The position numbers and the translations under genes are program-made. The notes under the pieces are model-generated. The model ran no database searches. It worked only from the letters and a program-made list of their open reading frames with translations, and was not told where the DNA came from. A stretch of DNA of 64,000 nucleotides from the NCBI GenBank assembly GCA_040223695.1, contig JAVKFU010000009.1:1-64000 (forward strand). The letters run 5' to 3'. The DNA comes from Deltaproteobacteria bacterium (lineage in GTDB: Bacteria; Desulfobacterota_D; UBA1144; Nemesobacterales; UBA2774). Positions 34,361 to 40,197 of this stretch are shown here, in pieces (within the stretch, counting starts at the first letter, position 1; each line of letters starts with the position of its first letter).

Positions 34361-35146
34361 ATGGGATTTGAATTTATCGGCTACGAAAGAGAACCGAACG
34401 ATATAGGAGTTCTTACAATTAACCGTCCGAAAGTTCTGAATGCGCTTAACTGGGATACACTCAGAGAGCTCAAAGTTTTCCTGCAGGACGTAATGCCGAA
34501 AGAGGATTTGAAAGCCCTGATTGTAACCGGGGCGGGCGAAAAGGCTTTCGTAGCGGGCGCTGATATAGCGCAGATGAACGAAATGAAAGAACGGGATTTT
34601 CAGGATTATGTCGATTATGCTCACGGGGTTTATCAAATGATTGAAAACGATCCGTGCCCGTCTATCGCCGCTATTAACGGTTATGCTCTGGGGGGAGGCT
34701 GCGAGCTTGCGCTTGCCTGTGACATAAGACTGGCGTCGGATAAGGCGAGGTTGGGGTTTCCTGAGGTGAAGCTCGGAATATTTCCGGGATGGGGCGGGAC
34801 ACAGAGAATCACAAGGATACTCGGTCTCGGTAAAACGAAAGAGCTTGTGTTTACCGGGGAAATGATAACCGCTGAAGAGGCTCTCAGGATAGGCCTTGTC
34901 GAACGTGTGGTGCCTCATGAGGAAGTAATGAATGAGGCGAAAAAACTCGCGGGTGCTATTGCCAAAAGAGGTCCGATTGCTGTCAGGTTATCTAAAACTG
35001 CAATCAATGCGGGCTCCGAAATGGACTTACAAAAGGCGCTTCTGCTTGAAAAAACGCTGGTTTCACTGTGCTTTGACTCTAAGGACAGGGTAGAGGGCAT
35101 GGAAGCCTTTCTGCAAAAGAGGGAGCCTGAGTTTACGGGCGAGTGA
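34361..35146 (+). CDS. Enoyl-CoA hydratase (crotonase family)
   Basis: A 261-residue crotonase-fold enzyme hydrating trans-2-enoyl-CoA. The oxyanion-hole segments are KAFVAGADIAQM and GYALGGGCELALACD, and both catalytic glutamates are present, in GGGCELAL and FPEVKLGIFPGWGG. Length and pattern match short-chain enoyl-CoA hydratase (Crt or FadB-hydratase type). It is the first gene of the PHA region: a dehydrogenase-compatible 3-hydroxyacyl-CoA product could feed PHA synthesis, but such (S)-specific hydratases serve beta-oxidation as well. Confidence 0.93.
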   Translation: MGFEFIGYEREPNDIGVLTINRPKVLNALNWDTLRELKVFLQDVMPKEDLKALIVTGAGEKAFVAGADIAQMNEMKERDFQDYVDYAHGVYQMIENDPCPSIAAINGYALGGGCELALACDIRLASDKARLGFPEVKLGIFPGWGGTQRITRILGLGKTKELVFTGEMITAEEALRIGLVERVVPHEEVMNEAKKLAGAIAKRGPIAVRLSKTAINAGSEMDLQKALLLEKTLVSLCFDSKDRVEGMEAFLQKREPEFTGE

Positions 35147-35370: not shown

Positions 35371-36126
35371 ATGCTGGAACAGTTGCACGATTTAACTGAC
35401 AAGGTTGCGGTAGTGACCGGAGGATCAAGGGGAATCGGCAGGTCTATATGCCTCGCTTTGGCCGAGGCGGGCGCCGATATATTACTCAACTATTCGCGTA
35501 GTGACAAAGAAGCCGATAAGGTGAAAAAAGAAATAGAAAAAATGGGCAGGAAATGCGTTACTTTGAGAGCCAATGTAGGTAATTTTCAGCAGGCGCAAAA
35601 CCTTGGAAAAGCCGCCATGAACCATTTCGGAAAAGTCGACATTCTAGTCAATAACGCGGGTATAAACCGGGACAGGACTCTCAAAAGAATGACCTTCGAG
35701 CAGTGGAACGAAGTAATACAGACCAATCTTTCAAGCGTATTCAATTGTACCAAAGCCGTAATCGATCCTATGATGGAAAACGGCGGGGTAATTGTCTCAA
35801 TATCTTCAATCATAGGTGAGATGGGAAACATGGGACAGTGTAACTACGCTTCTACAAAGGCAGGAATAATCGGTTTTACCAAAACTATGGCAAGGGAGCT
35901 TTGCCGGAATAATATACGCGTTAACGCCGTTGCCCCGGGTTTTGTTGAAACGGACATGCTCGGTACCGTGCCGGAGGATATCAGGGAGGGGATAAAGAAG
36001 GAGATAGCTCTCGCCAGATTCGGCACGCCCGAGGAGATAGCTCTTGCCGTTGTTTATCTTTGCTCTCCGGCCGCCTCCTGGATAACGGGAGTGACCTTAA
36101 GAATAAACGGCGGTCATTATATATAA
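35371..36126 (+). CDS. fabG: 3-oxoacyl-ACP/acetoacetyl-CoA reductase (SDR)
   Basis: A 251-residue short-chain dehydrogenase. The NADPH loop TGGSRGIG (17-24), N-N-A-G, the catalytic Ser in SISSI, and the Y-x-x-x-K in CNYASTKAG are all present. The sequence is of the FabG/PhaB type that reduces 3-oxoacyl groups to (R)-3-hydroxyacyl groups. Its location directly before the class III PHA synthase operon suggests it makes (R)-3-hydroxybutyryl-CoA for the polymer, the role of PhaB; a FabG role in fatty acid synthesis is not excluded. AGGAGG precedes the ATG by 5 nt. Confidence 0.88.
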   Translation: MLEQLHDLTDKVAVVTGGSRGIGRSICLALAEAGADILLNYSRSDKEADKVKKEIEKMGRKCVTLRANVGNFQQAQNLGKAAMNHFGKVDILVNNAGINRDRTLKRMTFEQWNEVIQTNLSSVFNCTKAVIDPMMENGGVIVSISSIIGEMGNMGQCNYASTKAGIIGFTKTMARELCRNNIRVNAVAPGFVETDMLGTVPEDIREGIKKEIALARFGTPEEIALAVVYLCSPAASWITGVTLRINGGHYI

Positions 36127-36218: not shown

Positions 36219-37286
36219 TTAAGAAGATCTCTTTATCAGCCAGTCGGCTACTTCCGGCCATAATCCCTTCAGCGACCTGCTGCTTACAGAGAGGCCGATA
36301 TGACCTGTGGGGTATACAATTGTTTCCTTGTCTTTACTGGATATAAGATCGTTAAAAACAAGGCTCGAGGCAGGGGGGACAAGGTGGTCGTGTTCCGCGA
36401 TCAGGTTCAAAACTGAACATTTAATCTCTTTAAGGTCAATCAGCTTGCCGTTAATCCTCAGCCTGTTTTCTGCCAGCTGATTTTCCTGATACAGATATTT
36501 TACGAATTCCCTGAATACCTCCCCCGCGACAGCGATGTTATCGTTGAGCCATTTCTCCATAGCGAGGAAATTATCGACAAAAGCCTCGTTATCAACATTT
36601 TCATAAAAGTTCACGTATTTTGAAACGAGGTTTTGCACCGGCTTCATAAATAAAAATCCCGATTGAAGAAATTCAGCCGGAGCGTTACCGTAGGCTTCGA
36701 TGAACTTGTCTACATCGAAATTCGACTTGTCGCCCCAGAGGTTTAAGGTGCCATCCACCTTAAAGTCGATACCCGCCGTCATGAGTACGAGGTTTTGTAC
36801 GTCCTCCGGGTAGAGAGCCGTGTACATCGCGGACATGGTGCCGCCCATGCAGTAACCGAGAATGCTTACCTTATCGGAACCGGAGTCTTTTTTAACCTTC
36901 TCGACCACTTTTTTGATATATCTGTTTATATAGTGGTTGAAACCGAGGTCTTTATCTTCATCCCCGGGGGCGCCCCAGTCAATCAGGTAAACATCGATTC
37001 CCTTTTTGAGAAGCACTTCCACAACGCTTCTTCCTGGTTTTAAATCGAGAATGTAAGGGCGGTTGACGAGAGCGAATATCATTATAAGCGGAACCGGCTG
37101 AGTCTTTTTCGCGACCGGATGGTAATGAAGCAGTTTAAGCTTGTTTTCAGTGAATATTACCTCATGGGGTGTTGTGCCGACTTCAACGTCAGGCGGATTG
37201 ACCAACGCTAAATCAATAGCCTTGCTGAATTTGTCTTTCGCCTTCTCGGCTTTTTTCAATGCTGAATCAAGATAATTATTTTCCAT
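36219..37286 (-). CDS. phaC: Class III poly(R)-hydroxyalkanoate synthase, PhaC
   Basis: A 355-residue polymerase that joins (R)-3-hydroxyacyl-CoA units to PHA granules. The lipase-like box with Cys nucleophile is GYCMGG (Cys146); the Asp is Asp300 (EHDH) and His329 (TGHIG) completes the triad. This spacing agrees with what is known for Allochromatium vinosum PhaC (149, 302, 331). The short length is typical of class III (PhaC plus PhaE), unlike the roughly 590-residue class I. Genes for PhaE-like partners lie upstream on the same strand, starting 73 nt away. Confidence 0.95.
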   Translation of the reverse strand: MENNYLDSALKKAEKAKDKFSKAIDLALVNPPDVEVGTTPHEVIFTENKLKLLHYHPVAKKTQPVPLIMIFALVNRPYILDLKPGRSVVEVLLKKGIDVYLIDWGAPGDEDKDLGFNHYINRYIKKVVEKVKKDSGSDKVSILGYCMGGTMSAMYTALYPEDVQNLVLMTAGIDFKVDGTLNLWGDKSNFDVDKFIEAYGNAPAEFLQSGFLFMKPVQNLVSKYVNFYENVDNEAFVDNFLAMEKWLNDNIAVAGEVFREFVKYLYQENQLAENRLRINGKLIDLKEIKCSVLNLIAEHDHLVPPASSLVFNDLISSKDKETIVYPTGHIGLSVSSRSLKGLWPEVADWLIKRSS

Positions 37287-37359: not shown

Positions 37360-37803
37360 TTATTTTTTAGATCTGCGTGCGGGTTTGCTTAAATCGTCGA
37401 CTTTGTCGACTAGGTCGTTTATTTTTTCTTCCAGTTTATTTATGGAAGTTAACATTCTGTCCATGTCGCTTTTTGTCGGAAAGCGCATGTTCTTTAAAGT
37501 TTTCTCAACGGCTTCGTCGAAATGCTTTTTGAACTCGGAGGATTTTTCGATCGCCTTGCCCACGTTAGCGGCAAAAAGAGGGCTGTTGACCCATTTCTCC
37601 ACTACTTCGGAAGATGACTTTTCCCATGTTTCGTAAAACTTTTTATACAGTTCCGCGGGGTCATAATCCTGATCCTCGTCCTTTGAATTACTGTTTACAA
37701 GTGGATTCTTTTTCCACATATCCATCGCTTCGGACATGGTTTTCTCCCAGGCTTCATAAAACTTTTTATAATGTTCCGTATAGTCGAATGCTTCTTTGCT
37801 CAT
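37360..37803 (-). CDS. phaE: PhaE-like PHA synthase subunit, copy B
   Basis: A 147-residue helical protein. The two W-E-K-(T/S)-(M/S)-S-E-(A/V) segments (EAWEKTMSEAMDMW and ETWEKSSSEVVEKW) and a C-terminal amphipathic coil (DRMLTSINKLEEKINDLVDKV) with a basic tail resemble the PhaE subunit of class III synthases. It is shorter than classical PhaE (about 300-360 residues). Its start overlaps the stop of the upstream paralogue by ATGA (37800-37803), so translation is probably coupled. PhaE binds PhaC and is needed for its activity. Confidence 0.78.
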   Translation of the reverse strand: MSKEAFDYTEHYKKFYEAWEKTMSEAMDMWKKNPLVNSNSKDEDQDYDPAELYKKFYETWEKSSSEVVEKWVNSPLFAANVGKAIEKSSEFKKHFDEAVEKTLKNMRFPTKSDMDRMLTSINKLEEKINDLVDKVDDLSKPARRSKK

Positions 37804-38168
37804 TGTTTTTTCTCCTTAACTTTTTTTCTTGTACCGGCTGTCCTCGGTTTAGGTGTACTCTTTCTGGGGCTCGATTGAATCTTCTCGATTTTCATTTCGA
37901 GTTCCGATACTTTTTCCTCCAGAGACTCTATGGTGTCGATCAACCTATCAATATCCACTTTCTGAGGAATGTATCTTTTCTCAAGCGACTGATCTATAAA
38001 ATTGTGGATGTAGTTTTTAAATTCCGAAGACTTCTCGACCGCCCTTTCCATAAGAGGGCTGTTCATCCAGACATCCATCATTTTGTTCGTTGATTCTTCC
38101 CATGACTCGTAGAGCTTTTTGAAATATCCGAAATAAACTATTTCATCGTACTCTTTTTTATTGCTCAA
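37800..38168 (-). CDS. PhaE-like PHA synthase subunit, copy A
   Basis: A 122-residue protein similar to the downstream copy B: LYESWEESTNKMMDVWMNSPL repeats the W-E-x-S motif once, followed by SSEFKNYIHNFIDQSLEK, a heptad region (DRLIDTIESLEEKVSELEMKIEK) and a Lys/Arg-rich, Pro-containing tail. It lacks the first half of copy B, so the pair may represent a duplicated or split PhaE. The start is a TTG with AGGAG 8 nt before it. The pair likely forms the PhaE-like part of the synthase complex; alternatively copy A is a granule-bound phasin-like factor. Confidence 0.72.
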   Translation of the reverse strand: MSNKKEYDEIVYFGYFKKLYESWEESTNKMMDVWMNSPLMERAVEKSSEFKNYIHNFIDQSLEKRYIPQKVDIDRLIDTIESLEEKVSELEMKIEKIQSSPRKSTPKPRTAGTRKKVKEKKQ

Positions 38169-38281
38169 ACCGGATCTCCTGAAACCAGAAAACAGAATAT
38201 TTATATAAATTTTAAGCTTATATTAATATTACATGCTTCTGCCCTTAAATTATAGGGCATCGTTCTTCCTTCCGTTTAGCG

Positions 38282-38719
38282 TCATTGACTAAGATGGCTA
38301 ATGTATCTCTCGAAGGCTGAAAAGGCTCTTTCTGCGGACTTTTGGTTGAGATCCAGTACTTCCTTCGAATAGTTGTCGGATGCCTTTTTGATGATTCTCA
38401 GGTAATTGTTCTGGAATTCAATCACACGATCAAGCCCCTCTGCAAAACCGAAGCCCGAATACTCTTTTGGCAATTTCCCGAAGAAGCTCTTCATCCGAGT
38501 TGTGTATTCTCTCTGAATTTTACCCAGCTGTTCGAACTGGGCATCAACGAGCCTCTTATTTTCCTCAAGCACCGAGTGAGCCGTGTCAAGCCCGATAAGA
38601 TAGTTCTCTCTTACAAAGCCGCTAAGGCCGTTAACCGTGTCATCGGTGTTTTTTACCTTTGCTTCTTTTCTTGCCGATGTTTTTCTCCTTTGTGGAGATG
38701 TTTTTCTTTTTTGAGCCAT
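38282..38719 (-). CDS. phaP: Phasin-like PHA granule protein
   Basis: A 145-residue helical protein. The N-terminal region is basic and low complexity (Lys/Arg/Ser/Thr, residues 3-25), then a long amphipathic helical domain with SVLEENKRLVDAQFEQLGK and FQNNYLRIIKKASDNYSKEV. The pattern fits phasins, which coat PHA granules. The basic N-terminus recalls nucleoid-binding granule proteins such as PhaM or PhaF tails, so binding of DNA is possible but unproven. A good AGGAGG lies 5 nt before the ATG and a TTGACA promoter is upstream. It is followed after 113 nt by the phaE-like genes. Confidence 0.75.
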   Translation of the reverse strand: MAQKRKTSPQRRKTSARKEAKVKNTDDTVNGLSGFVRENYLIGLDTAHSVLEENKRLVDAQFEQLGKIQREYTTRMKSFFGKLPKEYSGFGFAEGLDRVIEFQNNYLRIIKKASDNYSKEVLDLNQKSAERAFSAFERYISHLSQ

Positions 38720-38749: not shown

Positions 38750-38777
38750 AATATAATTATTCTGAGATTTTTGTCAA
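38750..38777 (-). promoter_or_regulatory. Sigma-70 promoter of the phasin gene
   Basis: On the minus strand, TTGACA (38772-38777), a 16-nt spacer and TATATT (38750-38755). It may also drive the phaE-like genes and phaC, as no clear promoter was seen in the 113 nt before them. The remaining bases to 39042 hold no gene I can support. Confidence 0.5.
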
Positions 38778-39042: not shown

Positions 39043-40197
39043 TTGATACTTTTCCGGCTATTTTGCCTGTTATTGCTATTGACCGCTGTTTCAAAGAATG
39101 TTCGTCCCGAAGAGCTGTCTGCGGATGATGGTTCCGGGAAAAAGTACTCGGCGCATACCCGGACATTCGGCTGCCTGCTGCCTCTGAGCGGAAGGTACAG
39201 GCTTATAGGGGAGAAGGCTCTCAGGGGAATCCTAGCTGCCGCCGGGGCCGGAACCCCGGGGGTCGAGTATAAAGTCATCGTAAAGGATATAGGTGAGGGC
39301 AAGGGAAAATTAGACGAGGCGTTTGAGAGCCTCGGTAAAACGGAAAATTTATCGTTCATCGTAGGTCCGATACCGAGCAAGTTCATTTCTACGATCAGTT
39401 CCCGGGTGAACTCGGCAAAAATACCCGCCGTCGTATTTCCTATATCCGAGAGCGAATCGTCGGGCGGCCCTTACTTCATTAAATATTATTATCCGCTTGA
39501 GGATCAGGTCGAGGCCCTTTCGCGATACGCTGCGCGGGAGCTCGGTGTAAGAACATTCGGAGTTCTATATCCCCGGACGGCGCTTGGGGAAAGATTGAGC
39601 CGGTCATTTGCCGAGAGCGTCAGGGGAACGGGCGGGAAGCTCGTCTATCAAGGCTCGTATAATCCCGAATCGAGGGATGTATCCGGTGAGGTAAGCTGGA
39701 TAGCTTCAGTAAGTCCCGACGCCATTTTTATACCAGACGGAGCGGCATCATCGGCGGAGGTAATTTTAAAGCTCAAGAGAAACCCGGATCTGAGGGATGT
39801 GCTCTTTATAGGGCCCAGCACCTGGAACAGCCCCGTTTTTTTTGATCTTGTCGGGAAGGAAATCGACGGATTCGTATTCAGGGCAATCTTTACGGATGCC
39901 CTCTTCTACGGCGATGACGAATGGAAGCAATTTTCCCGGCTTTTTGAAATGGAATTCGCTCACCAGCCTGATTTCCTGGAGTTTCAGCTTTATAAAGCGG
40001 TAAGATTGATCCTTTCCTTACAAGGTTCGGATGGCGGTCCCGGAAGAAAGACGTTAATCGATTCCCTTATGAGCTTGAAAAATAATCCGGCGTATGAAAT
40101 ACGAAGGGACAAGAGCGGCAGCGTTCAGGTCTCGCCCAGGTATCGCATCATGTCGGTCAGCGACGGCGAGCTGATAGATATCATGAAGGCAAGGTGA
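39043..40197 (+). CDS. ABC-type branched-chain-like periplasmic binding protein
   Basis: A 384-residue exported protein with a type I periplasmic binding fold (Peripla_BP_6/LivJ/LpoA-like). After a signal peptide (about 1-20) come GCLLPLSGRYRLIGEKALRG, an internal domain with F-I-V-G-P-I-P-S and PVVFPISESES-like motifs, and a hinge followed by the second lobe (FGVLYPRTALGERL). Such proteins either feed ABC permeases or, like LpoA, activate penicillin-binding proteins. No permease or ATPase is beside it, so a non-transport role is possible. Start TTG with GGGAGG 9 nt upstream. Confidence 0.8.
   Translation: MILFRLFCLLLLLTAVSKNVRPEELSADDGSGKKYSAHTRTFGCLLPLSGRYRLIGEKALRGILAAAGAGTPGVEYKVIVKDIGEGKGKLDEAFESLGKTENLSFIVGPIPSKFISTISSRVNSAKIPAVVFPISESESSGGPYFIKYYYPLEDQVEALSRYAARELGVRTFGVLYPRTALGERLSRSFAESVRGTGGKLVYQGSYNPESRDVSGEVSWIASVSPDAIFIPDGAASSAEVILKLKRNPDLRDVLFIGPSTWNSPVFFDLVGKEIDGFVFRAIFTDALFYGDDEWKQFSRLFEMEFAHQPDFLEFQLYKAVRLILSLQGSDGGPGRKTLIDSLMSLKNNPAYEIRRDKSGSVQVSPRYRIMSVSDGELIDIMKAR

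Follow-up and report, generated by a model that had tools for sequence, protein, structure and literature searches.

Two PhaE-like genes, E1 and E2, stand in tandem before a class III PHA synthase gene (phaC) in the window, the whole 64,000-nucleotide stretch of DNA analysed here, and the first of the two is retained in a sister genus (g3) where no PHA synthase was found. With confidence evenly poised, we read E2 as the partner of PhaC and E1 as what may be a PhaF- or PhaM-like adaptor whose role outlives PHA synthesis. The survival of E1 where a PHA synthase was not found came as a surprise from outside the coordinates covered by an earlier, sequence-only reading of this region.

The window lies on contig C9 of a 3.03-Mb draft genome that is 95.6% complete. 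Its open reading frames and translations placed a phasin-like gene, E1, E2 and class III phaC in a row, all on the minus strand, in the tandem order and at the positions given by the sequence-only reading. That reading had also named two tandem PhaE-like genes in the operon of a class III PHA synthase, which was confirmed by the TIGR01836 match of phaC and by the profile alignment (hhalign) of E1 with E2. The features of the region are as follows.

38750..38777, minus strand: predicted sigma-70-like promoter before the phasin-like gene (11/12, spacer 16)
38282..38719, minus strand: phasin-like protein, 145 aa, with a basic N-terminus
37800..38168, minus strand: E1, diverged PhaE paralogue, 122 aa, TTG start, sharing 4 bases with E2
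37875..37952, minus strand: E1 residues 73-98, heptad coiled coil (a/d hydrophobicity; helix in the AlphaFold2 model)
37803..37874, minus strand: E1 residues 99-122, basic tail (10/24 K or R; low confidence and no helix in the AlphaFold2 model)
37360..37803, minus strand: E2, most likely the PhaE subunit proper, 147 aa (PF09712 35.8 bits vs cut-off 25.7)
37702..37770, minus strand: E2 residues 12-34, first YKKFYExWEK...W...P unit, read from the sequence
37579..37647, minus strand: E2 residues 53-75, second unit, common to E1 and other PhaEs (hhalign and alignment)
37465..37479, minus strand: E2 residues 109-113 (P-T-K-S-D), putative PhaE box (P then T/S in 15/15 E2 rows)
36219..37286, minus strand: phaC, class III PHA synthase catalytic subunit, 355 aa (TIGR01836 421 bits)
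35371..36126, plus strand: phaB- or FabG-like reductase (SDR), divergent neighbour (NF009466 above cut-off)
34361..35146, plus strand: enoyl-CoA hydratase (crotonase)-like gene, divergent, named by eye; a relative lies directly after E1 in genus g3

The synthase was assigned to class III with a TIGR01836 score of 421.3 bits against a curated cut-off of 365.3, and its sequence contains C146, D300 and H329, which we take to be the positions of the catalytic triad. Its nearest relatives among the matches listed with names, from which records of its own genome were possibly excluded, were Candidatus Dadabacteria MAGs with 83% identity. The divergent reductase matched the FabG model NF009466 with 263.9 bits (cut-off 222) and TIGR01829 and TIGR01830 below their cut-offs. 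Eight sigma-70-like sites were found where 6.6 were expected from shuffles, and the site before the phasin-like gene is only suggestive of a promoter. The phasin-like gene itself was difficult to place in a family: one of ten members matched Phasin_2 (PF09361, 4.9e-4), the window protein gave no such match, and the commonest weak match was the unrelated family Cor1 (4/10). Of the 15 genomes with an E1-E2 pair, 13 (all but G042 and G013) yielded relatives of this gene, as did G001 and G006; the matches in G010 and G039 were weak or partial. The window's genome holds three more relatives (G000:C18:283809-284222, G000:C15:465920-466327 and G000:C15:637995-638390), four in all.

The order E1-E2-phaC was found in 15 genomes of the taxonomic order to which the window belongs, the window included, with a broken or gapped phaC match in two of them (G013 and G041). 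E1 and E2 overlap by four bases (ATGA) in the window; measured in 14 relatives, the overlap is 1, 4, 8 or 17 bases, depending on the start codons chosen. The overlap before phaC in all 15 pair genomes suggests that the two proteins work jointly there. Across 57 genomes of the window's phylum, all of them drafts, the pair was present in 15 and E1 alone in six, all of genus g3; G006 had an orphan E-like gene as well as a second, weak match, and the only matches in G009 and G014 were weak, short ones to E1. The orphan gene of G006 (L142:5449-5874) adjoins genes that by eye resemble cytochrome bc1 subunits, in a genome without a PF07167 match. Copies of phaC about 73% identical to that of the window, without E upstream, were seen in G001, G002 and G004 (L015/L039, L019/L038 and L020); the copy at L150:6472-7527 of G001 is the same place as L015/L039, and neither the E1 nor the E2 profile found any match in that genome. 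Three of the four genomes of genus g2 (G028-G030; L026-L028) additionally contain a frame of 589-595 aa that matches PhaC_N at full length and may encode a class I synthase.

We then compared these loci with phaC loci elsewhere, using the best 80 of 487 confirmed loci, a set chosen by phaC similarity that hardly includes classical PhaEs of at least 300 residues. Nine of the 80 (L032-L040) grouped with the window at a phaC identity of at least 71%; eight are titled Dadabacteria and L035 is Bacterium HR37. Seven of the nine carry the E pair, and no E-like ORF was found in L038 and L039. All of the other 71 loci, from archaea, Planctomycetes, Verrucomicrobia and others, had one PhaE-like ORF upstream, searched for with HMMs of the two window families (E1 and E2; E up to 0.05) within 1500 bases on the phaC strand. 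Two PhaE-like genes per phaC are thus unusual. The lengths of the 71 PhaE-like ORFs, some over-long because the longest-frame starts were used, were 138-309 aa, with 67 of the 71 at 250 aa or less. The premise of the sequence-only reading, that PhaE is normally a protein of 300 residues or more, therefore did not hold among these loci; the view of a short PhaE as an oddity was rejected and is corrected here, short single PhaEs being common there.

The nearest likeness to the pair elsewhere was found in the phylum of G058 (39 genomes, 29 with a match), where eight arrays had two E-like matches close by (L169-L173 and L175-L177), but these arrays do not have two E genes per one phaC. Seven of them (L169-L173, L175 and L176) have two E-like and two phaC-like ORFs each, for example in the order C-E-E-C in L170, and possibly represent a two-synthase system. 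L177 has two phaC-like ORFs with only a single separately called E-like ORF, and in L178 two phaC-like ORFs flank a single E-like one. Among 119 genomes from the larger group forming the phylum of G063 (18 with a match), two close matches occurred only in G163, in a stretch with one E-like frame of 351 aa.

E2 is most likely an ordinary PhaE and the partner of PhaC, as judged from its family matches. PF09712, TIGR01834 and the PhaR model TIGR02132 each matched 15/15 E2 members at E up to 0.01; the window protein aligned to the last third of the PhaE family (PF09712) and scored below the cut-off of 155 bits for TIGR01834 and below the equivalog cut-off for TIGR02132. By direct reading, the unit Y-K-K-F-Y-E-x-W-E-K occurs twice in E2, with 12 of 23 residues identical between the copies, and once in E1. 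The P-T-K-S-D proline motif of E2 is presumably the published PhaE box; what PhaE does for PhaC is, to our knowledge, poorly understood. No PDB sequence matched E2 below E 0.07 in a phmmer search, and the structure model of E2 was poor (mean pLDDT 57).

Family models reached E1 far less well. Even at E up to 10, the window E1 matched neither PF09712 nor TIGR01834; the latter was reached by one of 15 E1 proteins (0.0036), and PF09712 was absent among the 25 of 47 families listed as matches of E1 members. At E up to 0.1, E1 proteins reached TIGR01837 (6/15), TIGR02132 (5/15) and unrelated coiled-coil families, and these weak matches are partly generic, because the family reached by most members was a conjugation protein (TraP model, 7/15). 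The Phasin family PF05597, to which PhaF and PhaI presumably belong, was matched by the window E1 with 19.6 bits (E 0.001, cut-off 28.8), and by 5/15 E1 members at E up to 0.1. The sequence-only reading had regarded a phasin match of one of the two proteins as evidence against its proposal; such a match was thus seen in E1, weakly and below cut-off, but it is unspecific, E2 matching the same family better (23.3 bits, 7e-5, likewise below 28.8; 14/15 members at E up to 0.01).

The relation of E1 to PhaE was instead established through E2. The E1 and E2 profiles aligned over 98 columns (hhalign probability 99.8, E 1.8e-29), which makes E1 a homologue of PhaE lying outside the reach of the PhaE family models, and since the alignment spans 98 columns, the two proteins are paralogues of one module of about 100 residues rather than halves. 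A chance resemblance was ruled out by this alignment and the tree. The notion of a split PhaE, one long gene broken into two complementary parts, draws on the presence of two short adjoining genes where one is expected; as each gene holds the whole module, not a complementary part of it, and short single PhaEs occur in other lineages, we regard this proposal of the sequence-only reading as hardly credible.

In the tree (53 rows, 90 columns), the 21 E1 rows grouped as a single clade (99/94), and a split with 97/94 set E1, E2 and the G006 orphan apart from 16 other PhaEs; with so few columns, several forks were unsupported, and E1_G013 and the G006 orphan had long branches. E1 arises out of a background of E2 rows on a longer stem of 0.29 changes per column. 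E1 thus has a single origin, and one duplication of a single short PhaE, in the ancestor of the phaC-bearing Dadabacteria, explains this pattern.

The two copies have diverged unequally. T or S follows the box proline in 15/15 E2 and 15/16 other PhaEs, while in the 21 E1 this position is never T and twice S, the two S rows adjoining an insertion where the alignment is unsure. A Phe two residues past the S-P proline is present in 15/15 E2, 16/16 other PhaEs and 6/21 E1; 14 E1 rows, every one from family f1, have lost it in a deletion that includes its neighbours. In six g2 pairs, dN/dS was low for both genes, 0.06-0.21 for E1 and 0.00-0.04 for E2, with E1 the faster in all six. If E1 were a redundant second PhaE with overlapping function, kept for dosage, one would understand why both copies have the same module, but not the long E1 stem, the class-specific losses, the longer tail, the faster change of E1 in every g2 pair or its survival where phaC was not found, and we consider this improbable. 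The box is named in the accessible parts of PMC2939530 and PMC7137286, the former describing the PhaE of Haloferax mediterranei (about 20 kDa) as lacking it and yet indispensable; loss of the box alone is for that reason no proof of a lost partnership with PhaC. The E1 of G013 is strongly degraded (25% identity), in a genome with a broken phaC, as if E1 depended on PHA there. The phaC match in question (L017) carries stops and frame changes, which could be decay or poor assembly, while the E1 and E2 frames are open.

From sequence features and the structure model, E1 runs from an amphipathic helix through a coiled coil to a basic tail, an arrangement not unique to E1. The AlphaFold2 model (mean pLDDT 78, pTM 0.31) shows two helices (2-36 and 38-99) and a disordered tail. 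In five E1 proteins tested, the strongest moment of the N-terminal helix within the first 60 residues was equalled by 0-5 of 200 shuffles, while in the two E2 tested the maximum falls in the coil. The tails of E1 are 12-54 residues long with 32-59% K or R. Basic tails were also found on single PhaEs of Planctomycetes and Verrucomicrobia, and an equally strong amphipathic helix on the single PhaE of L041 (0/200 shuffles), so tail and helix alone are no mark of a new job. A PDB search with the E1 profile returned varied coiled coils (best E 0.001), with no PhaE entry by the E1 profile or E2, and of the four Foldseek matches to the E1 model at an E limit of 10, none reached 0.001.

The coil positions bear on whether E1 and E2 could form one mixed PhaE complex, such as a heteromeric coiled coil, that PhaC needs, with g3 reusing E1 after PHA loss. 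The two proteins share a heptad register, with hydrophobic residues at 163/168 a/d cells over 21 E1 rows and at 120/120 in E2; their fixed order with overlapping frames before phaC in 15/15 pair genomes and the low dN/dS of both in the six g2 pairs would also fit such an obligate hetero-subunit. A crude count of g-e' charges, averaged over 15 genomes, was highest for E1:E1 (2.13), followed by E1:E2 (0.87) and E2:E2 (-0.40). This score favours self-association of E1 rather than an obligate E1:E2 heterodimer, and charge pairing as a sign of such a heterodimer was left unsupported. Further against a mixed complex are the conserved PhaE positions gone from E1 and the single PhaE-like ORF of the 71 other loci.

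Further evidence on this point came from genus g3, sampled as seven draft genomes of 83-97% completeness. In none of the seven was phaC detected, by protein search or by PF07167, or a phasin-like gene, or E2, the sole E2-profile match in six genomes being E1 itself. E1 is kept in six of the seven. Because E1 persists there without a detected phaC or E2, it is not simply half of an obligate hetero-subunit, and we consider that reading rather unlikely; from the hetero-subunit form that the sequence-only reading had offered, the tandem of two PhaE-like genes stands, and the rest is weakened by the lone E1 of g3, the lost positions and the charge score. Because g3 keeps E1 where phaC, E2 and phasin-like genes were all undetected, the E1 core would have a job independent of PhaC, and E1 probably does something besides helping PHA synthesis.

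Whether the g3 gene is a non-functional relic on its way out was also considered, given that its operon partners are gone. The g3 E1 members are 71-87% identical in amino acids to each other, and adding the six g3 rows left unchanged all ten residues that do not vary among the 15 other E1. Two g3 pairs with dS below 1 gave dN/dS of 0.122 (dS 0.59) and 0.079 (dS 0.77), and a third gave 0.033 near saturation (dS 3.96); of the 15 pairs, 11 had saturated dS and one was unusable (dS 26). A relic is very improbable in light of this conservation, and in the few pairs that can be used E1 is retained at low dN/dS.

In four g3 loci (L143, L144, L146 and L148), prfA, a ccsA-like gene, E1 and a crotonase-like gene follow each other on one strand; the contig of L145 ends before the crotonase-like gene and that of L147 before prfA. 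These three gene names were given by eye from the sequences, not by a family scan. In the window and in L032, L033 and L036, relatives of these same ccsA-like and crotonase-like genes flank the phasin-E1-E2-phaC-phaB set, which has a gene like that at 39043-40197 of the window on its outer side; the crotonase is on the opposite strand. L034 is alike except for the phasin-like gene, and in L035 and L040 no crotonase was found within the stretch.

In the mechanism that we propose, a single short PhaE gene was doubled in the ancestor of the phaC-bearing Dadabacteria, and E2 would have kept the ancestral work of binding and activating PhaC. E1 has lost conserved PhaE positions and, in the order seen in PhaF, bears an aromatic amphipathic helix, then a coiled coil, then a tail rich in lysine. 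In PHA-making cells, its helices would most likely attach it to the synthase or the granule surface and its tail would tether synthase or granule to DNA or another acidic surface; its core would have a second, PhaC-independent job, the one used in g3. A further account of E1, which we hold tentatively and with slightly less than even confidence, is that a former PHA synthase subunit first added a side job and in g3 works without any PHA synthase, where it would probably act as an organiser that self-associates through its coiled coil and carries a polycationic tail, encoded in a row and perhaps co-transcribed with ccsA-like and crotonase-like genes. Comparison of the copy that retains conserved PhaE positions with the copy that has lost them provides a residue list for testing PhaC activation, and the presence of E1 where no PHA synthase was found raises the possibility that PhaE-type proteins may work outside polymer synthesis.

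The papers listed from the freely accessible literature on class III PhaE, PhaE duplication and PHA in Dadabacteria, as distinct from subscription papers, showed no description of the E1-E2 pair; for Dadabacteria, the accessible text of PMC8312272 tallies two PhaC, one of class I and the other of class III, and does not mention such a pair. Compared with known systems, E2 resembles class III PhaE (PF09712, TIGR01834) in matching the C-terminal third of the family, in standing directly upstream of phaC and in keeping the proline-Thr, but the window has two paralogues per phaC, an E2 of 147 aa with an extra repeat and an E1 outside the family model. E2 is also similar to PhaR of class IV synthases (TIGR02132), another short helical partner that all 15 E2 match at E up to 0.01; unlike PhaR, it additionally matches PhaE, and the PhaC of the window is class III by TIGR01836. 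PhaM of Ralstonia eutropha goes with another synthase class than that of the window and has a different genomic setting from E1. The likeness of PhaM to E1, drawn by description alone, lies in the proposed way of working, with contacts to synthase and granule as well as to DNA (accessible part of PMC3556143). For the PhaF/PhaI pair of Pseudomonas, the available portion of PMC5658603 describes an operon of two similar proteins, of which PhaF has an amphipathic helix, a leucine zipper and a basic DNA-binding tail and ties granules to DNA, while the other has no tail; it also describes a phasin as protective in cells making no PHB. The Pseudomonas pair differs from E1 and E2 in consisting of phasins that accompany class II synthases, and the window E1 matches PF05597 below cut-off, yet the order of helix, zipper and tail in PhaF is the arrangement to which we liken E1.
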